From: Halegenticoccus soli
GTDB taxonomy: Archaea > Halobacteriota > Halobacteria > Halobacteriales > Haloferacaceae
Reading direction: 5' to 3'
Length of the DNA: 64,000 nucleotides
Assembly (NCBI RefSeq): GCF_002844195.1
Contig: NZ_PEND01000001.1
Coordinates: forward strand, 496,001-560,000
Under the pieces are notes generated by a model. That model searched no databases. It saw only the letters and a program-made list of their open reading frames with translations, and was not told the DNA's origin. The stretch's first letter is position 1. Every line of letters begins with the position of its first letter. A program made the translations under genes and the position numbers. This document shows positions 5,387 through 51,368 of this stretch, piece by piece.

Positions 5387-6862
5387 ATGGGATGGAAAGA
5401 AGCCGCCGAACCCGTGCTAACGCGGATGCCGGCAGTCCAACGTCCCGAGGGGCACGTCCCCTTCAAACGGAAGTTGGGCTGGACCGCCGGCATCCTCGTT
5501 ATGTACTTCTTCCTGACGAACATCACCCTGTTCGGGCTCCAGACCGGAACTGACGACTTCTACGGGCAGTTCCGGTCTATCCTCGCCGGGTCGCAGGGCT
5601 CGATCCTCCAGCTCGGGATCGGTCCGATCGTCACGGCGAGCATCGTGCTCCAGCTGCTCGGCGGGGCCGACCTGCTCGGATTGGACACGAACGATCCGCG
5701 CGACCAGGTGCTCTACCAGGGGCTCCAGAAGCTCCTGGTGGTCGTGATGATCTGCCTGACGGGGCTTCCGATGGTGTTCGCCGGGGGCTTTCTGCCCGCC
5801 GATCCGGCGGTCGCCCAGCAGCTCGGCGTCGGCCAGTTCGGGGTCGAGACGCTCATCTTCGTCCAGATCTTCGTCGGCGGCGTTCTCATCCTGTTCATGG
5901 ACGAGATCGTGAGCAAGTGGGGGGTCGGCAGCGGGGTCGGCCTGTTCATCATCGCCGGCGTGAGCCAGCAGCTCGTCGCCGGGCTGTTCAGCTGGCAGGA
6001 GCTGGGCCAGGCTTCCGGGTTCTTCCCGACCTGGTTCGGGATCGTCACCGGCTCCGTCCCGCTCGGCTCGCCGCTGACGGCGGAGGGCTTACAGGCGCTG
6101 TTCCTCGGCCAGGGACAGCTGCTCGCGCTCGTGACGACGGTGCTCATCTTCGCCGTCGTCGTCTACGCCGAGAGCGTCCGCGTCGAGATCCCGCTGTCGC
6201 ACGCCCGCGTGAAGGGGGCGCGCGGCCGCTTCCCGGTGAAGCTCATCTACGCGTCCGTCCTGCCGATGATTCTCGTCCGCGCGCTCCAGGCGAACATCCA
6301 GTTCCTCGGGCGCATCCTGGCGAGCCAGCTCGGCGAGGGCATGCCCGCGTGGCTCGGCGAGTACAACCAGCAGGGCCAGCCGGTCGGCGGCCTGTTCTAC
6401 TACCTCAACCCGATACAGAGCCGCGACCAGTGGACGTGGTTCCTCGGGACGACCTCGGCCGAGCCGTGGGAGGTGATGCTCCGCGTCGGCGTCGACCTGA
6501 CGTTCATGGTCGTCGGCGGGGCGATCTTCGCGGTGTTCTGGGTCGAGACCACTGGAATGGGCCCGGAGGCGACCGCCCGGCAGATCCAGAACTCCGGGAT
6601 GCAGATCCCCGGCTTCCGCCGGAACCCGCAGGTCATAGAGAAGGTGATGGAGCGGTACATCCCGCAGGTGACCGTCATCGGCGGGGCGCTCGTCGGGCTG
6701 CTCGCCGTCATGGCGAACATGCTCGGCACCATCGGGCAGGTCTCCGGGACCGGCCTGCTGCTCACGGTGTCTATCACCTACAAGCTGTACGAGGAGATCG
6801 CGGAGGAGCAGCTCATGGAAATGCACCCGATGATGCGCCAGGTGTTCGGCGGGGGCGACTGA
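5387..6862 (+). CDS. secY: preprotein translocase subunit SecY
   Basis: Central pore protein of the Sec61/SecYEG translocon in the cytoplasmic membrane. 491 residues with about ten hydrophobic spans, starting MGWKEAAEPVLTRMPAVQRP as in archaeal SecY, with the basic cytoplasmic loop VRVEIPLSHARVKGARGRFP (about 264-283) before TM6. Conserved downstream position after L15. Its last 35 bases (6828-6862), coding the C-terminal MMRQVFGGGD region, recur exactly at 10510-10544, so the 3' end appears to be the insertion site of the following accessory island. Confidence 0.97.
   Translation: MGWKEAAEPVLTRMPAVQRPEGHVPFKRKLGWTAGILVMYFFLTNITLFGLQTGTDDFYGQFRSILAGSQGSILQLGIGPIVTASIVLQLLGGADLLGLDTNDPRDQVLYQGLQKLLVVVMICLTGLPMVFAGGFLPADPAVAQQLGVGQFGVETLIFVQIFVGGVLILFMDEIVSKWGVGSGVGLFIIAGVSQQLVAGLFSWQELGQASGFFPTWFGIVTGSVPLGSPLTAEGLQALFLGQGQLLALVTTVLIFAVVVYAESVRVEIPLSHARVKGARGRFPVKLIYASVLPMILVRALQANIQFLGRILASQLGEGMPAWLGEYNQQGQPVGGLFYYLNPIQSRDQWTWFLGTTSAEPWEVMLRVGVDLTFMVVGGAIFAVFWVETTGMGPEATARQIQNSGMQIPGFRRNPQVIEKVMERYIPQVTVIGGALVGLLAVMANMLGTIGQVSGTGLLLTVSITYKLYEEIAEEQLMEMHPMMRQVFGGGD
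6828..6862 (+). repeat. left direct repeat (attL candidate) at secY 3' end
   Basis: Thirty-five bases ending with the secY TGA codon. They are identical to 10510-10544. The copy here is inside the functional secY gene. The two copies bracket about 3.65 kb of accessory genes, consistent with site-specific integration that regenerates the gene end. No integrase gene was found between the copies. Confidence 0.8.
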
Positions 6863-6974
6863 TGGAACTGCCGTAGAGCGCTAACTCACCTCTTTTCGGC
6901 GTCCTGAATCGCTCGTCTCATCGGAGCGGAAGGGCAGCGTAAGCTAGTTAGGCGCGTATGCAGTCCGTATACAC

Positions 6975-7172
6975 GTGAGCACGTCCATTCGCGTCTCGGA
7001 CGACACCAAGCGGATGCTGGAGCGGCTGAAACGGGAGGACGAGACGTTCGACGAACTCCTCGAACGGCTCGCACAGAGCGAACGCCCCATCGAAATCGGC
7101 GCGTGGAGCGAGGAAGAGGCCGAACGAGCGCGGTCGGCCGTGAAGCGCTCTCGGAGGAGCTTCGAGCGGTGA
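6975..7172 (+). CDS. VapB-like antitoxin
   Basis: 65-residue antitoxin partner of the PIN toxin that follows. The N-terminus (MSTSIRVSDDTKRMLERLK) resembles the short beta-strand plus helix of ribbon-helix-helix antitoxins, with an acidic, Arg-rich C-terminal part that would wrap the toxin. Start is a GTG at 6975, the only start giving this N-terminus. The TGA overlaps the GTG start of the toxin, so the two are coupled. It lies just inside the island's left boundary. Confidence 0.8.
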   Translation: MSTSIRVSDDTKRMLERLKREDETFDELLERLAQSERPIEIGAWSEEEAERARSAVKRSRRSFER

Positions 7173-7567
7173 CGTTCCTGGATAGCTCGGTCATCATCGA
7201 CATGCTGGAGGGCGTCCCCGAGGTCGTCTCGGCCGTCGAAGAGCGCGGCCAGCCGTACCTCACGTCCTCGCTCTGCGTGTTCGAGGTCGTAGACGGGAGA
7301 GTAGGTAGCGGCGAGACCGACGTCGTCGGAGTTCGCCGACAGTTCGGCGGCGTTCGGGCGCTGGACCTGAACGAGCAGATCGCGCTGGAAGCCGCCCGGA
7401 TGCAGGACAGATTGATGGACGACGGGGAACGAATGGCCGCGCGTGACCTGCTCATCGCGGCGACCGCCCGATCTACCGGGGACGAACTCGTCGTCTCGGA
7501 CAGCGACTTCGAGACGGGTTCGCTCACGGAGATGATGGACGTTGCGAGCCTCCGAGAGAGAGACTGA
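7169..7567 (+). CDS. PIN-domain ribonuclease toxin, VapC type
   Basis: 132-residue PIN-domain protein, the probable toxin RNase of a type II toxin-antitoxin pair. The acidic metal site is intact: D5 in the first strand (MTFLDSSVIIDML), E39 (CVFEV), D93 (ARDLLIA) and D111/D113 (VVSDSDFE). The start is the GTG at 7169 overlapping the antitoxin stop (GTGA). The apparent longer frame beginning at 7103 runs inside the antitoxin gene. The target RNA cannot be told from sequence; many VapC enzymes cut tRNA or rRNA. Confidence 0.85.
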   Translation: MTFLDSSVIIDMLEGVPEVVSAVEERGQPYLTSSLCVFEVVDGRVGSGETDVVGVRRQFGGVRALDLNEQIALEAARMQDRLMDDGERMAARDLLIAATARSTGDELVVSDSDFETGSLTEMMDVASLRERD

Positions 7568-7781
7568 ATTCGGCGAACGATACAATCTCCGCTACGAACT
7601 GGATTCGCGTAGTTAACAGCGGTCTCCAAACCCGTCATCCCGGACGCAGAAATCGAGCGCCGCGCTGCACACAGAGGATGTGTCCATCAATGGGGTACCG
7701 ATGATCCGCGGACGTAACCAAATCAGGAATCCGAGTACTATCCGCGGAGAGAACTGCACTTCAGTGCCTGACTCAGTGCTC

Positions 7782-8744
7782 TCATCCGCCACGATTCACA
7801 TCTACCACCTCCATCCGATCGTCGTACGTGAGCCCAAGCACATCGCCCTCCAACGGAATCGAGATGCGGATGCGAAGGGGGTCCTCCGAAAGAAGTTCCT
7901 CCTCGAAGTCGAGGAGGTACGCGCGTTGCTCGTAGGTAGCGAGGTCGAACTCAATGCCATGTTCGTAATAGAACGCGACCACCGCCGGGTGTCTTGACGG
8001 GTAGAACAACGTCGGCATCCGCCACCGGTATTTACACCCTTCGCAGACGTGCGAGACCAGCATCCAGAAGATCGACCCGCAGTTCTCGCAGAACTGGTAC
8101 TCGTTCCAATCTGGCTGGTGATCCTCGCAGATATCGACCGAGGTGATGGGCATCTCACCCGCACACTCGGGGCAAACGCCGTCCATCACCGACGCTCGTC
8201 GATGAGTACCCCAAATCCGGTCCGCCTCGTTGATCTCGTTTGGCGTCCGACCCCGCAACCCCGACGGAGGGAATTCGGTCTTGCTGATCACCCCCGGCGG
8301 GAACGACTCGACACACCTCGCTTCGCAGTTGGTACATTCCAAGTAGCGCCATCCCTCCCAATAACTCCACTCCGGTTGTCCACCGCAATACCAGCACGAG
8401 ATATCCACCGCCACGGGCTCAATCTCTGGATCGTCGATCGCGGTGCCGGAAAGTAACATCCGGACGATCCGCTTGCCCGAATCCATGAGCTCGTACCCGT
8501 CTTCTGTCCGCCGGACGAAGGTGTCCATGAGCTTGTTCAGGTGGTAGTTCAGACGGCCGGGGTCCTCAACGCCGACGCGCTCGCGGAGTTCGGCGAACCG
8601 GATTGAGGTTCCGTCCACCGGATCGTGGGCTTCCCAGAGGACCTGTAAGATTTCGAGTCTGGTCTCGTCCGAGAGGAGCTTGAACGCCTCGTTCGCGGTG
8701 GATGGGTCCGACCGTTCTGCCTGGCTTGGGATCGGGGGGTCCAT
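7782..8744 (-). CDS. ArsR-like winged-helix regulator with zinc-ribbon C-terminal domain
   Basis: 320-residue protein. Residues about 12-95 form an ArsR-type winged helix (EAFKLLSDETRLEILQVLW, then GRLNYHLNKL). The rest is rich in paired cysteines (CWYCGG, CTNC, CPEC, CENCGS, CEGC), suggesting two or more zinc ribbons, and ends in an acidic domain. The architecture is the same as the gene at 36425-37309 (DUF7351-type), so they are paralogues. The ATG at 8744 is preferred to one at 8798 because the winged helix follows it and a 15-bp palindrome lies upstream. Divergently transcribed from the DUF1059-methyltransferase pair, so it probably regulates that pair and itself (inference). Ligand unknown. 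Confidence 0.8.
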   Translation of the reverse strand: MDPPIPSQAERSDPSTANEAFKLLSDETRLEILQVLWEAHDPVDGTSIRFAELRERVGVEDPGRLNYHLNKLMDTFVRRTEDGYELMDSGKRIVRMLLSGTAIDDPEIEPVAVDISCWYCGGQPEWSYWEGWRYLECTNCEARCVESFPPGVISKTEFPPSGLRGRTPNEINEADRIWGTHRRASVMDGVCPECAGEMPITSVDICEDHQPDWNEYQFCENCGSIFWMLVSHVCEGCKYRWRMPTLFYPSRHPAVVAFYYEHGIEFDLATYEQRAYLLDFEEELLSEDPLRIRISIPLEGDVLGLTYDDRMEVVDVNRGG

Positions 8745-8781
8745 ACAGTAACGAGGTGGACGTGCGTAATGACCCTTACTC

Positions 8782-8796
8782 GTGGTATCATACCAC
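8782..8796. promoter_or_regulatory. palindromic operator candidate upstream of the ArsR-like gene
   Basis: Perfect inverted repeat GTGGTAT-C-ATACCAC, 38 to 52 bases upstream of the ArsR-like start on the minus strand. The location and symmetry suit a dimeric winged-helix repressor acting on its own promoter. No experimental basis is visible. Confidence 0.5.
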
Positions 8797-8887
8797 ACGG
8801 CTTTGAGGATCCCCCAGCCAGTGTCGCCTGCCGACGTAAGTTCACTCTCTCAAGGCATTGAGCCCGGAGCCACGCATCACACTCCTT

Positions 8888-8932
8888 ATAGAAGACGGGT
8901 TCTATCGACGTTCCTATAGAACTGTAGTTCTA
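8888..8932. promoter_or_regulatory. two adjacent inverted repeats in the DUF1059-methyltransferase promoter
   Basis: ATAGAA-6-TTCTAT at 8888-8905 and TAGAAC-4-GTTCTA at 8917-8932 share the TAGAA/TTCTA half-site and are spaced 29 bases centre to centre, roughly three helical turns. They lie 51 to 95 bases upstream of the DUF1059 start and look like a tandem operator. The half-site differs from the palindrome at 8782, so a second factor may act here. Confidence 0.5.
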
Positions 8933-8982
8933 ATTACAGCTATATCGGTAGCAGCGGATGGTGTTTCTGGAGGTCAACAGCA

Positions 8983-9156
8983 GTGGCACAGGCCCACAAC
9001 CTCGATTGTGAAGCAGCAGCGGTCGGTTGCCGGTTCATCATCCAATCGGAAGACGAGGCCGAGGCGATCGAACTTGCCAAGCGACACATGCGGGACGTCC
9101 ACGGTAAGGACTGCTCGGACGAAGAACTCCGGAGCGAACACCTGCGGATCGTGTAG
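8983..9156 (+). CDS. DUF1059 family small protein
   Basis: 57-residue protein beginning at a GTG with a good Shine-Dalgarno (GGAGG at 8969-8973, nine bases upstream). The composition matches DUF1059: cysteines at 9 and 16, then FIIQSEDEAEAIELAKRHM and the tail SDEELRSEHLRIV. The function of DUF1059 is not established; the cysteines and histidines suggest metal binding or redox. It ends 10 bases before the methyltransferase start, so the two form an operon. The gene is in a different frame from the long frame covering the methyltransferase. Confidence 0.82.
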   Translation: MAQAHNLDCEAAAVGCRFIIQSEDEAEAIELAKRHMRDVHGKDCSDEELRSEHLRIV

Positions 9157-9166
9157 GAAAGAAACC

Positions 9167-10243
9167 ATGTCAACGGAAACTGAAACGAACTCGATCGACG
9201 AACAGAAACTGACCGACCTGGTAGAAACGTCTCTCGTGGACCTCGGTGCGACGGTCCACGCCGCGCTCGCCGTCATCGGCGATGAACTCTGTCTTTATGC
9301 GGCACTGGACGAGGCTGGGCCGCTTTCGTCCGCTGAGCTGGCCGAGGAGACGGATACCGTGGAACGCTATGTCCGCGAATGGCTTCGAGCGCAGGCCGCC
9401 GGTGGATACGTGACCTACGACCCTGAGACCGACCGCTACTATCTCTCCCCCGAGCAGGCGTACGTCCTAGCCAATAGAGAGAGCCCCGTGTTCATGCCTG
9501 GTGCGTTCCAGCTGGTGACGTCGGCCTCCAAGATCGGACCCGAACTCCGAGAGGCCTTTCGAACGGGCGAGGGCATCGGCTGGCACGAACACGACGAGGA
9601 CGTGTTTCACGGTACCGAACGTTTCTTCGGACCATCCTACGGGACCTTCCTAATCGACTGGATCGGGGCACTTGACGGGGTCGATGCTACATTGCAGGCA
9701 GGCGGGAAGATCGTTGACGTGGGCTGTGGCCATGGCGCACCCACGATTCGCATGGCCCAAGCCTATCCCAGCTCCACGGTTATCGGCATTGACTACCACG
9801 AGGCTTCGATCGAAGTGGCACGCGAGCGGGCGGAAACGGCGGGCGTCGCCGACCGCGTCACCTTCGAGGTAGCGACCGCGAGAGGGTACAGCGGGACCGA
9901 TTACGACCTCGTCACGATGTTCAACTGCTTCCACGACATGGGCGATCCCGTCGGTGTGGCGGCCCACGTTCTGGAGACGTTGGCCGATGACGGGACGTGG
10001 ATGATCGTCGAACCCTACGCTGAGGATCGTGTCGAAGACAACCTCACCCCGTTCGGCCGCCTCGCATACTCCATCTCGACGGTTGCGTGTACGCCGAACT
10101 CGCTCAGTCAAGACGTTGGCTACGGGCTCGGCGCGCAAGCAGGCGAGGAGCAGACCCGGAAGGTCGTCACCGAAGGTGGGTTCGCGCGCTTCCGCCGTGC
10201 GGCCGAAACGCCGACCAGTCTGGTCTTCGAAGCGAAGCCGTAG
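9167..10243 (+). CDS. SAM-dependent methyltransferase with N-terminal winged-helix domain
   Basis: 358-residue class I methyltransferase. Residues about 15-105 are a winged-helix/dimerisation domain (ELAEETDTVERYVREWL). The Rossmann methyltransferase follows, with SAM motif I VDVGCGHG at 183-190 and an acidic residue after strand 2 (GIDYHE). This resembles the Rv2258c-type methyltransferase family. The ATG at 9167 follows the DUF1059 stop; the frame extends upstream to 8858 but that part overlaps DUF1059 and the promoter. Substrate unknown. AT-richer codon use than the ribosomal genes and the location in the island suggest acquisition by transfer. Confidence 0.82.
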   Translation: MSTETETNSIDEQKLTDLVETSLVDLGATVHAALAVIGDELCLYAALDEAGPLSSAELAEETDTVERYVREWLRAQAAGGYVTYDPETDRYYLSPEQAYVLANRESPVFMPGAFQLVTSASKIGPELREAFRTGEGIGWHEHDEDVFHGTERFFGPSYGTFLIDWIGALDGVDATLQAGGKIVDVGCGHGAPTIRMAQAYPSSTVIGIDYHEASIEVARERAETAGVADRVTFEVATARGYSGTDYDLVTMFNCFHDMGDPVGVAAHVLETLADDGTWMIVEPYAEDRVEDNLTPFGRLAYSISTVACTPNSLSQDVGYGLGAQAGEEQTRKVVTEGGFARFRRAAETPTSLVFEAKP

Positions 10244-10796
10244 TCCGATATCTGAGATATTGTTCTTTGACCATCCTTGATCGGTCAACCAGAATCTCTA
10301 CCGAGTCGTCTGTCTTCTCGATATCTCACCCTCCGTGACGCTGATCGTTAGGCCGTTTCCATCGCTAACCCGTATCCCGGAGGTGTTAAATCCGCGCCCT
10401 GTATTCAGCACGGTTATTCTCTCGGATCGGGTGGAAATAGCCACGTAAGCTCCCCGTGCTGTAGATGACGGCTTCGATCTGTTGGGGCTCCAGTAGGATC
10501 CCGTTGCATCGATGATGCGCCAGGTGTTCGGCGGGGGCGACTGAACCGCCGTTCCCGCCGCGGAGGACCGCAAGCGAACGCTTCGCGGGTTCCGCGTCTC
10601 ACGGGTTACCCTCCCTATGGGATTTCGTCGCAAAACGGCCGTATCTCTCGAATGGAGAAGAGAACCGCCCCGATTCTCCGGTGTGAGAATTAGTGGCACA
10701 GATTTATGTCCGGCCGGCCGTACGTTCAGAACGGTTCGCGGCGCGGCGGGGGGACGGGCAGTCGCCCCGTCGGCGTCGCGAAGGAGTGATTGACGC
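10244..10796. other. island right end and DUF7511 upstream region
   Basis: About 550 bases. 10298-10509 on the minus strand reads as a plausible C-terminal protein fragment (AYVAISTRSERITVLNTG near its middle) that runs into the 35-bp repeat without its own start, so it may be a truncated gene; its family was not recognised. 10510-10544 is the repeated secY end. A hairpin (GAACGC TTCG CGGGTTC type) follows at about 10574-10591 and may be the original secY terminator. A 27-codon frame at 10706-10789 precedes the next gene but has no support as a protein. Confidence 0.35.
10510..10544 (+). repeat. right direct repeat (attR candidate), copy of secY 3' end
   Basis: Exact 35-base copy of 6828-6862, including the TGA. 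It is not attached to any secY reading frame here. The sequence after it (10545 onward) is therefore probably what originally followed secY. Confidence 0.8.
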
Positions 10797-10994
10797 ATGA
10801 GCGCGATCGACACGTACGATCCGGACGACGGCACCGCCCTCCGCGAGCTCCCGCGCTTCCGACTGGAGTATCTCTTCGACGACGAGCGCCGTCCGACGGA
10901 GGTGACGGTGTTCCCGGCGGAGTCGGGCGACCTCGCGACGAACTGGATCACCATCGACGAGTCCCACGCGGTCCCGCTCGAAGACGTTCGGTGA
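10797..10994 (+). CDS. small haloarchaeal protein (DUF7511-like)
   Basis: 65-residue acidic protein without membrane segments. The central TEVTVFPAESGDLATNWIT and the C-terminal AVPLEDVR resemble the short haloarchaeal DUF7511 family, whose function is unknown. An AAGGAG stretch at 10781-10786 is about ten bases from the ATG and may serve as ribosome binding site. It is the first gene after the island. The family assignment is from memory of the motif pattern. Confidence 0.65.
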   Translation: MSAIDTYDPDDGTALRELPRFRLEYLFDDERRPTEVTVFPAESGDLATNWITIDESHAVPLEDVR

Positions 10995-11153
10995 GCGCGG
11001 CGACCGCTGTCTGCCGGCGTTCCTCGGCGACGACCGGACCGACGAGGTGGGCTTCCGCCCTCGCGCCGCCGTCGACGCCGTCCCCAACGTTATGAACTCC
11101 GAGAACGTGAATGGTAGCTCTTATTAATCTTGAGGCATCTCTTAACACTACGC

Positions 11154-12359
11154 ATGAGCGGATACACTCGCAGGAGGGCCCTCGGCATCGGGGCGGGGGT
11201 CGCGGTGGCGGCGTTCGCCGGGTGTCTGGGCGAGGGGGGCGACGGATCCGGAGGCGCGACGGGCGGCGACGGAGAACCGGTGCAGGCGTCGTTCTTCGTG
11301 CTGTCGGACTTCGCCGACAGCGTCGCGGGCGACGCCGTCGAGGTCGGGAACCTCGTCCCGTTCGGTCAGCACGGCCACGGGTGGGAGCCGGGCCCCGACA
11401 TCCAGCGGACCGTCCTCCGGTCGGACGCGCTCGTCTACATGGGCGACGGGTTCCAGCCGTGGGCGGACAAGATCGTCCAGAACGTCCGGGACAACGACGA
11501 GGACGTGTCGGTGATCGCGGCCCGAGAGGACGTCGATCTCCTCGGCCCGCCGGGCGAAGGGGGCGACGATCACGGACACGGCGACCACGAAGGTGGCGAG
11601 CACGGTCACGACGATCACGCCGAAGACGACCACGGGCACAACGACACCGCCGAGGACGACCACGACCACGAGGCGGGCGGCAACGAGACCGACCACGGCC
11701 ACGAAGCCGGCGGCAACGAGACCGGGGGCCACGAGGGAGGGTCCCACGACGAGCACGCGGAGGAATCTCACGAAGAGCACGGAGAGCACGGCGATCACGA
11801 AGGCGACGGTCACGACCACGGGCCGCACGACCCGCACTTCTGGCTCGATCCGACGCGGGCCGCGACCGCGGTCGAGAACGTCCGACGGGGGCTGGTCGAG
11901 GTGTATCCGGACCGCGAATCCGCGTTCGCCGACAACGCGGCGGCGTACGCGTCCGAACTGGAGGCGCTCGACGAGGAGTTTCGGTCGTCGCTCGACGGCC
12001 GCGAGCGGGACGACGTACTCGTCGCCGGGCACAACGCGTTCCAGTACCTCGGGAACCGGTACGGCTTCACCGTGCACGCCCTGACCGGCCTCGCGCCGGA
12101 TTCGCAGGCGTCGCCCCGCGACGTCTCCCGCGCGCAGGCGCTCATCGAGGAGCACGGCATCACCCACGTCCTCGCGCCCGTCTTCGAGTCCGACCGCGCG
12201 GCGAAGCAGCTGGTCGAAGAAACCGACGCGACGGAGGCCGTCCCGCTCACGCCGGTGCCGACGCTGAAGGCGGAGTGGGCCGAGAAGGGCTGGGGGTTCG
12301 TCGACGTGATGCGGAACGTCAACCTGCCGTCGCTGCAGAAGGCGCTCGGGGCGGAATGA
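11154..12359 (+). CDS. znuA: zinc ABC transporter substrate-binding lipoprotein, ZnuA-like
   Basis: 401-residue cluster A-I metal-binding lipoprotein. The N-terminus SGYTRRRALGIGAG is a Tat-type signal and FAGC with C24 is a lipobox. A very long His/Asp/Glu-rich segment lies at about 138-225, followed by PHFWLDPTRAATAVENV and a C-lobe with AGHNAFQYLGNRYGF. The His-rich loop is typical of zinc-binding ZnuA proteins. The start at 11154 was chosen because the signal sequence begins there. An AT-rich box (TTATTAAT, 11121-11128) lies about 26 bases upstream, so the transcript is probably leaderless. The stop overlaps the ATPase start. Manganese is a less likely substrate. Confidence 0.88.
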   Translation: MSGYTRRRALGIGAGVAVAAFAGCLGEGGDGSGGATGGDGEPVQASFFVLSDFADSVAGDAVEVGNLVPFGQHGHGWEPGPDIQRTVLRSDALVYMGDGFQPWADKIVQNVRDNDEDVSVIAAREDVDLLGPPGEGGDDHGHGDHEGGEHGHDDHAEDDHGHNDTAEDDHDHEAGGNETDHGHEAGGNETGGHEGGSHDEHAEESHEEHGEHGDHEGDGHDHGPHDPHFWLDPTRAATAVENVRRGLVEVYPDRESAFADNAAAYASELEALDEEFRSSLDGRERDDVLVAGHNAFQYLGNRYGFTVHALTGLAPDSQASPRDVSRAQALIEEHGITHVLAPVFESDRAAKQLVEETDATEAVPLTPVPTLKAEWAEKGWGFVDVMRNVNLPSLQKALGAE

Positions 12360-13192
12360 GTTCGAGCGACGAGGCGCGGCGGGGCGCCGGTGCCGTCGGC
12401 GGGGACGCGGGGACGGCGGACCGTCCCGAAGGCGAGCGCGAGTCGATCGACGGGGCCGTGATCGAGGTTTCGAACGTCACGTTCGGATACGGGGGGTCGC
12501 CCGTCCTCGAAGACGTGTCGCTGACCGTCGAAGCGGGGGAGTTCCTGGGCCTCGTCGGGCCGAACGGGTCGGGCAAGAGCACGCTCCTGCGGCTCGTCCT
12601 GGGGCTGCACCGGCCGGACAGCGGCGAGATTCGGCTGTTCGGCGAGCCCGCCCGCGCGTTCGACGACGGCGAGCGCGTCGGCTACGTGGCGCAGGACGTC
12701 ACCGGCGGAACGCGAGAGATGCCGATCACCGTCCGCGAGGTCGTCACGATGGGGCGGTACCCCCGCGTCCGGTTCGGGCGGGTCGGGTCGCGCGACCGGC
12801 GGATCGTGACGGAGGCGATGGAGACGGTCGGCGTCGACCACCTGGCGGACCGTCGGCTGGCGCACCTCTCCGGCGGCCAGCGTCAGCGGGTGTTCATCGC
12901 CCGGGCGCTGGCCGGCGAGGCTGACCTGCTCGCGCTCGACGAGCCGGCGGTCGGCGTCGACGCGGAGTCCCGCGAGGCGTTCTACGACCTCCTCCACGAG
13001 CTGAACGGCCGGGGGATCACCGTCGTCCTCATCGACCACGACATCGGCGTCGTGACCGAGCACGCCTCGCGGGTGGCCTGTCTGAACCGCCGGCTGTTCT
13101 TCCACGGCGACCCGGACGGATTCGCCGAGAGCGACGCGCTCGCGCGGGCGTACGGCGCGAACCAGCGGCTCCTCGACCACGATCACTCGTGA
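12356..13192 (+). CDS. znuC: zinc ABC transporter ATP-binding protein, ZnuC-like
   Basis: 278-residue ABC ATPase that would energise uptake of the metal delivered by the preceding lipoprotein. Walker A GPNGSGKST at 68-76, signature LSGGQRQR, Walker B LLALDEP and switch histidine (LIDHD) are present. The first 33 residues are a low-complexity acidic extension. The ATG overlaps the znuA TGA and the TGA overlaps the permease GTG, a tight three-gene operon. Confidence 0.9.
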   Translation: MSSSDEARRGAGAVGGDAGTADRPEGERESIDGAVIEVSNVTFGYGGSPVLEDVSLTVEAGEFLGLVGPNGSGKSTLLRLVLGLHRPDSGEIRLFGEPARAFDDGERVGYVAQDVTGGTREMPITVREVVTMGRYPRVRFGRVGSRDRRIVTEAMETVGVDHLADRRLAHLSGGQRQRVFIARALAGEADLLALDEPAVGVDAESREAFYDLLHELNGRGITVVLIDHDIGVVTEHASRVACLNRRLFFHGDPDGFAESDALARAYGANQRLLDHDHS

Positions 13193-14247
13193 ACCCGACC
13201 GAACTCACCTCCATCTCGGCCCTCTCGCCGCTCTGGCTCGGCCTCGCCGCGGTCTTCGAGGGGTTCGTCGGTCTCGTCGGCGCGGGGATCCGGCTCGTCG
13301 GCGAGCTACTGTGCGCCGTCGGCGGCGCGCTCGGCGTCGACATGCTCTGTTACTCGTTCATGCAGCAGGCGTTCGTCGCCGGGATCTGCGTCGGCCTCGT
13401 CGCGCCGCTCGTCGGGAGTTTCCTCGTCCACCGCGACATGGCGTTCATCGGCGACACGCTCGCGCACACCGCCTTCGCGGGCGTGGCCGTCGGCCTGTTC
13501 GTCGGGTCCGTGTCGGCGATCTCCGTCTCGCCGTACCTGACGGCGCTCGTCGTCGCGGTGATCGCGGCGCTGCTCATCGAACTCATCTCCGAGTACACCG
13601 ACGCCTACGGCGACGTGCCGATGGCGATCGTCCTCTCGGGCGGGTTCGCCCTCGGGACCGTCCTCGTCAGCCTCTCCGACGGGGGAATCGCCGTCAGCAT
13701 CAGCCAGTACCTGTTCGGCAGCCTCTCGACGGTCACGCTCGAAAACGCTGCCGTCCTCGTGGTCCTGACCGCGTTCGTGGTGGCCGTCGTCGCGGCGACG
13801 TACAAGCAGCTCCTTTTCATCACGTTCGACGAGACCGCCGCCCGCGTCGCGCGGCTGAACGTCGCCACGTACAACCGCCTCCTGGTGGTGCTCACCGCCC
13901 TGGTGGTCGTCGCGGCGATGCAGATCATGGGCGTCATCCTGGTCGCCGCGATGCTCGTCGTCCCCGTCGCGGCCGCCGCGCAGGTCGCCCGGAGCTTCCG
14001 GGGGTCGGTCGTCGTCGCGGTTCTCGCGGGCGAGCTCGCGGTGCTCGTCGGCCTCACCCTCTCGTACTTCTACGGCGTCGCCGCCGGCGGGACCATCGTC
14101 CTCGTCGCGATCGGCGTCTACGCCTGCGCGGTCGCGCTGGATCGGCTGGGCCTCTCTTTCAAGGCCGGGTCGGGCGAGCGGGTCGACGCGAGACCCGCGG
14201 CGGTCGACGGCGGCGAGGAGCCGAAGGGGCCGAAGGGGCCGAAGTAG
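13189..14247 (+). CDS. znuB: zinc ABC transporter permease, ZnuB-like
   Basis: 352-residue membrane protein of the ABC-3 permease family with about eight or nine hydrophobic spans. Conserved segments include RDMAFIGDTLAHTAFAGVA near 84-102 and VILVAAMLVVPVAAA near 248-262. The GTG start at 13189 overlaps the ATPase stop. The first ~45 residues form an extra hydrophobic span compared with bacterial ZnuB. The tail is a short repeat (GPKGPKGPK) from a nine-base tandem repeat at about 14221-14244. Confidence 0.88.
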   Translation: MNPTELTSISALSPLWLGLAAVFEGFVGLVGAGIRLVGELLCAVGGALGVDMLCYSFMQQAFVAGICVGLVAPLVGSFLVHRDMAFIGDTLAHTAFAGVAVGLFVGSVSAISVSPYLTALVVAVIAALLIELISEYTDAYGDVPMAIVLSGGFALGTVLVSLSDGGIAVSISQYLFGSLSTVTLENAAVLVVLTAFVVAVVAATYKQLLFITFDETAARVARLNVATYNRLLVVLTALVVVAAMQIMGVILVAAMLVVPVAAAAQVARSFRGSVVVAVLAGELAVLVGLTLSYFYGVAAGGTIVLVAIGVYACAVALDRLGLSFKAGSGERVDARPAAVDGGEEPKGPKGPK

Positions 14248-50414: not shown

Positions 50415-51368
50415 TCAGCAGCCGTGCGTCACCGCGATCGTCGCGTCGTCCACGACCGGTTCGCCGTCCGCCGCGTACGGACCGTCCTCCGCGCCTTCGG
50501 AGGTGACGAAGTCGTACTCGCCGTTCCCGTTCGAGTCGAAGTGCGGCATGGCGATGAGCGTCGCGTCCTCTTCCAGCATCTCCGTCTCGAACTCCCTGCC
50601 GGGGACGCCCTCGAACAGGTGGATCTCGACGTCCTCGTGGGTTCCGGCGTCGAGCGCCTCCGAAACGCCGACGACGCTCTGGAACACTTCGCCGTCGAGC
50701 AGCGTCGCGTCGTGGATGGTGACGAAGCCGCCGTCGGACAGCATCGCCTCGTGAACCACGACCGTCTTTCCGTCGGACTCCTGGTCCCGGAAGCAGACCT
50801 CCGCCGTCGGCTCTGCCGACGAGCCGGCCTCGACCGCGACCTTCGCGTCGTCGATCACCGCCTCGCCGTCGGCGGTGTACGGGCCGTCCTCCGCGCCCCC
50901 GGTGGCGACGAAGTCGTACTCGCCGTTCCCGTTCGAGTCGAGGTGCGGCATGGCGATGAGCGTCTGATCCCCCTCCAGCATCGTCGTCTCGAACTCCGCG
51001 CCCTTCACGTCGAACAGGTGGACCTCGACGTCCTCGTGGGCCCCGGCGTCGAGGTACTCCGAGACGCCCACGACGCTTCCGAGCGCGTCGCCGTCGAGGA
51101 GCCGCTCGTCGTGGATCGCCACGAAGCCGCCCTCGGACAGCGTCACCGACGCGACCGCGACGGTCTTCCCGTCCGTCGTCTGGTCCTCGAAGGTCACGTC
51201 CGCCGACGGCGCGTCCTCCTGGGCGATCGCCGTGCCGCCCAACGCGAGCGCCGCGCCGGCCGACGCGGCCACCGTGAGGAACCGCCGCCGCGACGTGCGG
51301 TCGACGGAAGTACCGACTGATTCGCGCGCTGTGCGTCCCGTGTCGTCTGCGGTGTCGTGTTCGGGCAT
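50415..51368 (-). CDS. Tat-exported protein with two DUF7282 repeats
   Basis: 317-residue secreted protein. The Tat motif SRRRFLTVAASAGAALALGG (about 26-45) is followed by a cleavage region near IAQ-ED. Two tandem copies of a roughly 125-residue domain follow; each has DGGFV(T/A)IHD, SVVGVSE-LDAG and the Asp-rich DSNGNGEYDF loop. DUF7282 is widespread on the surface of haloarchaea and its function is not established; the Asp/Asn loop suggests calcium binding. The ATG at 51368 (MPEHDTADD) is preferred to an upstream ATG at 51416. Confidence 0.82.
   Translation of the reverse strand: MPEHDTADDTGRTARESVGTSVDRTSRRRFLTVAASAGAALALGGTAIAQEDAPSADVTFEDQTTDGKTVAVASVTLSEGGFVAIHDERLLDGDALGSVVGVSEYLDAGAHEDVEVHLFDVKGAEFETTMLEGDQTLIAMPHLDSNGNGEYDFVATGGAEDGPYTADGEAVIDDAKVAVEAGSSAEPTAEVCFRDQESDGKTVVVHEAMLSDGGFVTIHDATLLDGEVFQSVVGVSEALDAGTHEDVEIHLFEGVPGREFETEMLEEDATLIAMPHFDSNGNGEYDFVTSEGAEDGPYAADGEPVVDDATIAVTHGC

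Follow-up and report, generated by a model that had tools for sequence, protein, structure and literature searches.

Islands that insert at the 3' end of a gene are known from archaeal tRNA genes and from bacterial trmE, dusA and ssrA, where the gene's end is duplicated, the gene is restored, the cargo varies, elements stack in tandem and integrase-less derivatives occur. The reported targets of archaeal tyrosine recombinases are mostly tRNA genes, with a few protein-coding genes (those for HMG-CoA reductase, heavy-metal efflux and an AsnC regulator), and secY is not listed among them (PMC8371274). Here we describe a 3.6-kb block of foreign genes that sits at the exact end of secY, which encodes the main protein-export channel, in Halegenticoccus soli (RefSeq assembly GCF_002844195.1), within a 64,000-nucleotide stretch of contig NZ_PEND01000001.1 (positions 496,001 to 560,000, hereafter the window, whose own numbering is used throughout). 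Comparison with other haloarchaea makes it very probable that the segment 6863-10544 entered the 3' end of secY through site-specific recombination.

Insertions at secY resemble the islands named above in all of those respects; unlike them, they target an essential protein-export gene in haloarchaea, and their recombinase clade was restricted to this site in our survey. In having an attB within a protein-coding gene they are like BJ1 (HMG-CoA reductase gene), Msmi-Pro1 and NitGar-E6 (PMC8371274), although these are single cases, whereas the secY site is common to many elements in several families of one order. The SNJ2-type integrases are likewise halobacterial tyrosine recombinases, and SNJ2 also uses small helper proteins (PMC8371274), but SNJ2 targets tRNA genes, unlike the secY clade. 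A recurrent module at the 3' end of one single-copy gene is also seen in the ssrA islands of Dehalococcoides (PMC3146451), which are bacterial and use a tmRNA gene; this likeness is one of module and site. A search of the accessible literature, subscription papers being outside our coverage, turned up no account of secY serving as an attachment site in archaea, and we provisionally regard it as a newly recognised haloarchaeal landing site for mobile DNA. An earlier note on this DNA, made from its letters alone, had called secY an unusual archaeal attachment site, which holds among the reported sites (PMC8371274) but not within haloarchaea, where the site proved to be recurrent.

The island at the secY end of Halegenticoccus soli

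The last 35 bp of secY, including the stop codon (6828-6862), recur with 35/35 identity at 10510-10544, both copies lying on the + strand, just as the earlier note had it, and with up to three mismatches allowed the repeat has exactly two sites in the 4.6-Mb genome. In 15 order-3 surrogates of the window the longest direct repeat was 17-23 bp, against 35 bp in the real sequence, and chance was therefore rejected as the origin of the repeat; tandem duplication was rejected as well, from these surrogates and from a search for same-strand copies downstream of secY. An assembly artefact is an unlikely source of the second copy, as both are some 0.5 Mb into a contig of 936 kb. The island is thus bordered on both sides by a direct repeat of a gene end, with the gene itself intact.

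The enclosed DNA is foreign in composition and patchy in content. Its G+C fraction is 0.600 (6863-10509), falling to 0.591 for 7568-10509, compared with 0.685 for the whole window and 0.701 for 10545-14000, which confirms that the sequence is AT-richer from 7570 on. The methyltransferase gene of the island was found in 16 of 147 genomes, and the best 12 matches are at least 80% identical. The features of the locus are as follows (genomes and loci of the survey are cited by G and L numbers).

5387-6862, + strand: secY, intact, its 3' end the attachment site; a 491-residue open reading frame with 83-90% identity to SecY of closer relatives
6828-6862, + strand: proximal 35-bp copy (secY end and stop codon), from the exact repeat search
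6975-7172, + strand: vapB antitoxin gene (PF02697, E=1.5e-10); counterpart directly after secY in G075 with 89% amino acid identity
7169-7567, + strand: vapC, PIN-domain toxin gene (PF01850, E=4.5e-9); 90% amino acid identity in G075
7782-8741, - strand: helix-turn-helix, CxxC-rich regulator (DUF7347 and DUF7351, domain search); first gene of a cassette seen in G059 and G061
8983-9156, + strand: DUF1059 small protein (PF06348), a cassette member
9167-10243, + strand: winged-helix and class I S-adenosylmethionine methyltransferase (PF21320, PF13847)
10482-10511, + strand: left arm of attR, TTGGGGCTCCAGTAGGATCCCGTTGCATCG, of the type at the distal ends of integrase-bearing secY elements (profile scoring)
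10510-10544, + strand: distal 35-bp copy, the displaced native secY end (exact repeat search)
10797-10994, + strand: DUF7511 gene (PF24351), the first native gene past the island; directly after secY in G051, G040 and others
11157-14247, + strand: zinc transport genes like znuA-znuC-znuB, part of the native flank; in G011 and G079 they begin 254-322 bp after secY

The domain searches bore out the cargo as it had been read from the sequence (vapBC, a zinc-ribbon regulator, a DUF1059 protein and a methyltransferase), the regulator being a DUF7347/DUF7351 helix-turn-helix protein with CxxC pairs. Elsewhere in the window a second exact 35-bp direct repeat (50505-50539 and 50907-50941) appears internal to one coding region.

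Uninterrupted counterparts of this locus are found in relatives. The znuA-znuC-znuB genes follow secY at the distance given above in two genomes that belong to other genera of the same family. For the DUF7511 gene the distance from secY is 119-173 bp in G051 and G040, and several other genomes have it at 550-743 bp. Since genes from beyond the island stand directly after secY in these relatives, the island parts genes that otherwise lie close together, and does so exactly at the secY stop. The empty site is thus seen at the level of gene order for the window locus (G011, G079, G051 and G040) and, for the family of insertions as a whole, at base level in Haloferax. The earlier note had named as fatal to its reading a gene order and repeat shared by all relatives with no empty site, and in these four genomes secY instead runs directly into znuA or the DUF7511 gene; of the two kinds of secY end it had proposed looking for in haloarchaea, one followed directly by native flank and the other by different cargo with the same repeat, both were found.

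The distal end of the island also carries an attachment arm. The 30 nucleotides at 10482-10511 (TTGGGGCTCCAGTAGGATCCCGTTGCATCG) are alike at 19/30 positions to the distal arm of Halopenitus persicus (TTGGGGACCAAATAGGGGCCCGTTCGGCGG). When the window was scored with a profile made from eight other arms, 8 of 127,940 positions reached the score of 10482-10511, and with a profile from the three closest arms (G037, G055 and G198) 1 of 127,940 did so, figures somewhat weakened by the arm class having been picked out by eye before scoring, although the position of the arm is fixed by the repeat. DNA comparison of 10240-10516 and 7560-7790 with the ends of other elements gave nothing informative. The island therefore has both a distal secY-end core and a distal left arm of the Halopenitus/Halorubrum type, as other members of the secY family do.

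Insertions at secY in other haloarchaea

Our first search for paired secY ends covered about 100 genomes and up to 15 kb downstream of secY. Same-strand second ends were found in the window genome (G000), in its congener G001 (5.4 kb away) and in G075 (0.95 kb), G034 (2.4 kb), G073 (11.2 kb), G167 (5.3 kb) and G108 (0.2 kb); a reversed-sequence control gave zero matches, and the few remaining matches on the forward and reverse strands carried 3-4 mismatches and look as if they fall inside genes. Other pairs with both copies on a single contig enclose 7.2 kb (G267), 15.7 kb (G233), 16.2 kb (G057), 20.5 kb (G449) and 22 kb (G153), and still larger ones 37 kb (G159), 50 kb (G198), 78 kb (G145), 80 kb (G398) and 93 kb (G030), so that the secY-bracketed islands of haloarchaea range from 0.2 to 93 kb. 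In draft genomes G037, G055, G038, G327, G201, G440 and G441 the second copy is on a different contig. Halorubrum persicum (G198) has three successive secY ends, the 50-kb element being followed by a 1.04-kb unit (L245:839-1896) that shares a nearly identical right arm with G167, which indicates that elements stack at the site. The genome of G180, which is a single contig, has two secY ends with identical coding 3' ends and differing flanks about 2.7 Mb apart (L084/L085, at G180:C1:59012 and 2714857), perhaps from a duplication of secY.

The Haloferax carriers allowed the junctions to be compared with uninterrupted sites base by base. Over 720 bp beginning at the distal copy, Haloferax prahovense (G159) is 98.3% identical to another species, G084, in which the secY end and its flank are uninterrupted, a match that shows integration at this site to be precise; the distal copy and flank of G153 match the uninterrupted site at 89%, and those of G198 and G038 also match uninterrupted sites. 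Native Haloferax secY has AAC where the secY of carriers has CAG, and the displaced copy in the carriers keeps AAC, from which it follows that the element supplies a new 3' end and displaces that of the host. In G153 and G159 (L248 and L249) a native Asn among the last SecY residues has accordingly become Gln, so that the insertion of a mobile element alters the sequence of an essential membrane protein: its C-terminal residues are exchanged at integration, and the gene remains intact. As the distal copies keep host sequence from about the Arg codon of Met-Met-Arg onward, the crossover would lie near those codons.

The cargo of two integrase-bearing elements that we sampled includes restriction-modification and GmrSD-type genes, one of the two also having an MCM helicase, and the element of G001 carries a protein of a PADLOC candidate family. 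From these few elements it is plausible that the secY site is a defence hotspot.

The secY-site integrases and their companion protein

Many carrier genomes have a tyrosine recombinase gene (PF00589) about 0.65-0.84 kb past the secY stop and in the same direction. We searched for its relatives with an alignment of eight secY-site integrases. In 147 relatives the top eight matches were each immediately downstream of secY, and one of these, in G145, was outside the query alignment; among the matches listed those below about 300 bits sit at other loci. Across 392 genomes of the order there were 22 matches at E<=1e-60, and 22/22 belong to elements attached at secY. For 20 of them the distance to a secY end or to an inverted distal copy is at most about 0.9 kb; the remaining two are 4.2 kb downstream of secY (G322, L210) and inside the 80-kb secY-bracketed region of G398. 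For 15 of 20 matches in named genomes the distance after secY is 0.66-0.87 kb; named carriers include Halopenitus persicus, Halorubrum persicum, Halorubrum vacuolatum, Halorubrum aquaticum, Haloferax sulfurifontis, Haloferax prahovense, Natrinema mahii, Natronomonas aquatica and Salinibaculum sp. KK48. In a sample of 295 genomes from the phylum, matches at E<=1e-45 occurred in six, every one of them a member of this order. A tree placed 27 secY-site integrases on one side of a branch (94/89) against 20 related integrases from other loci, with one change of site label compared to 15.5 in shuffles. By these sequence comparisons, insertion at the secY site recurs across haloarchaea and has a dedicated clade of integrases, and Halegenticoccus soli is no isolated case. 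In a sub-branch of the integrases (G201, G440 and G441, L185-L187; G039, L081) the gene, unlike the others of the clade, is at the distal end of the element and faces away from the copy of the secY end.

In all 17 loci examined a companion gene separates the integrase from secY or from the distal copy, and it usually overlaps the integrase start (e.g., L191:9384-10004). The companion protein had no Pfam family, and a ribbon-helix-helix label that we considered for it was unsupported by Pfam. Its structural model is of middling confidence (mean pLDDT 69), and the C-terminus may possibly be a winged helix, the matches to this fold reaching only Z 7 and perhaps reflecting a common arrangement.

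We found no free element with an attP among the viral contigs, phages and plasmids searched. The exact secY-end pattern was absent from the viral contigs, and the integrase alignment found no relative there and only a 26% partial match among phages; the match on plasmid phalar01 of strain DL31 was at 35%, and the 25 kb examined contained no copy of the secY end.

Integration, rival readings and implications

We propose that a tyrosine recombinase of the secY clade would join the chromosomal secY end to a copy of that end on an element, presumably circular at this stage, with crossover probably near the Met-Met-Arg codons. The element's copy would complete secY, leaving the gene intact, and the original end would be pushed to the far side of the insert, where it would form the distal repeat. 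The DNA-binding companion may serve as a regulator or directionality factor, and in the window element vapBC possibly acts as a stabiliser. What the comparison of genomes shows is that the repeats are paired and lie on the same strand, that uninterrupted sites exist, that a clade of integrases is found at the site and that the window has the attR arm in common with other elements. The proposal of site-specific integration into the secY 3' end, made before any relative had been consulted, thus held up, the window island belonging with the others by its position, its repeat and its right (attR) arm.

A direct repeat would also arise as the target-site duplication of a transposon or casposon, or from local duplication of the secY end, with no site-specific recombination, and the copies in the window are indeed identical. 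We nevertheless consider this origin very improbable, because the island genes include no transposase or Cas1, the copies differ in other genomes with the distal one matching the native secY end, the integrase clade goes with the site, and the island has an attachment arm.

Several observations do weigh against site-specific insertion as the history of this particular island. No uninterrupted site was found for the species or genus, the sole congener compared (G001) carrying a different insert of 5.4 kb. The left end is without the palindromic right arm GGGNCC..GGNCCC that is found past the secY stop in integrase-bearing elements and that is present in G001 too. No integrase gene or recognisable integrase fragment was found in the island, where a search for pieces of integrase or companion gave chance-level matches only; the pair of companion and integrase genes directly after secY is absent from the genome, and no integrase of the secY clade was found elsewhere in it at E<=1e-18. 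In addition, the two copies of the repeat are identical, including a Val codon absent from every other secY end examined, whereas most other pairs differ; the donor would thus have had a secY end of the same lineage, or the copies were homogenised, and the island's last movement was probably within its own lineage if homogenisation did not occur.

With integrase, companion and left arm all missing, the window element is likely to be decayed or dependent on help in trans. This fits the suggestion of the earlier note that the island is a remnant or a non-autonomous element; the partner integrase it had proposed seeking was found neither in the island nor in the genome, but a dedicated clade does exist at secY in other haloarchaea. 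The congener G001 shows what looks in its sequence to be decay in progress in another member: the right arm is kept, the companion gene is truncated by an early stop and there is no integrase. The island could instead be a still-mobile cassette, comparable to a cis-mobilisable element and moved in trans by a secY-clade integrase. Both core copies are perfect, and small integrase-less units do recur (the 0.95-kb vapBC-only unit of G075, those of 2.4 kb in G034 and 5.3 kb in G167, and the 1.04-kb tandem unit of G198); with the left arm missing, no integrase of the clade in the genome and decay seen in the congener, we consider present mobility possible but rather doubtful.

The origin of the cargo raises a further alternative, to which we give a little under an even chance, that a three-gene cassette of separate origin was joined, by later deletion or capture, to an older vapBC element already at secY, so that the two ends would not derive from one integration. 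In G075 vapBC is likewise directly after secY, with 89-90% amino acid identity, as the sole cargo of a bracketed 946-bp unit, and G001 has a remnant of vapB past its second secY-end copy. The regulator, DUF1059 and methyltransferase genes recur in the same order at loci other than secY in G059 and G061, with DNA identity of about 82%, and the base composition of the island shifts after vapBC. No secY-end copy survives between vapBC and the cassette, which speaks against such a joining. The counterparts of window 7672-10241 at L263 (G059) and L266 (G061) form one block at unrelated loci in other genera, and this distribution suggests a mobile cassette. Since vapBC stands alone in G075 and the three-gene unit is found at other loci, the island is a patchwork. 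Weighing these alternatives, we conclude that the window island is an integrase-less, probably decayed or trans-dependent member of the secY family that carries vapBC and the three-gene cassette.

As a speculation that we hold only tentatively, the secY 3' end may be a general haloarchaeal site, served by an integrase and a DNA-binding companion, at which elements repeatedly rewrite the end of SecY, small integrase-less cassettes such as vapBC move in trans between genomes, and defence and toxin cassettes are docked. For the biology of archaeal mobile DNA, the family provides an attachment site that is protein-coding, present in single copy and used repeatedly, together with a matching clade of integrases and clear arms. 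Pairs of empty and occupied species exist in Haloferax, a genus with working genetics, which opens to direct test the use of the site as a haloarchaeal integration tool, the effect on protein export of swapping the SecY C-terminus, and the mobility in trans of integrase-less islands. The restriction-modification and other defence-like cargo also makes the secY site a place to seek new haloarchaeal defence systems.

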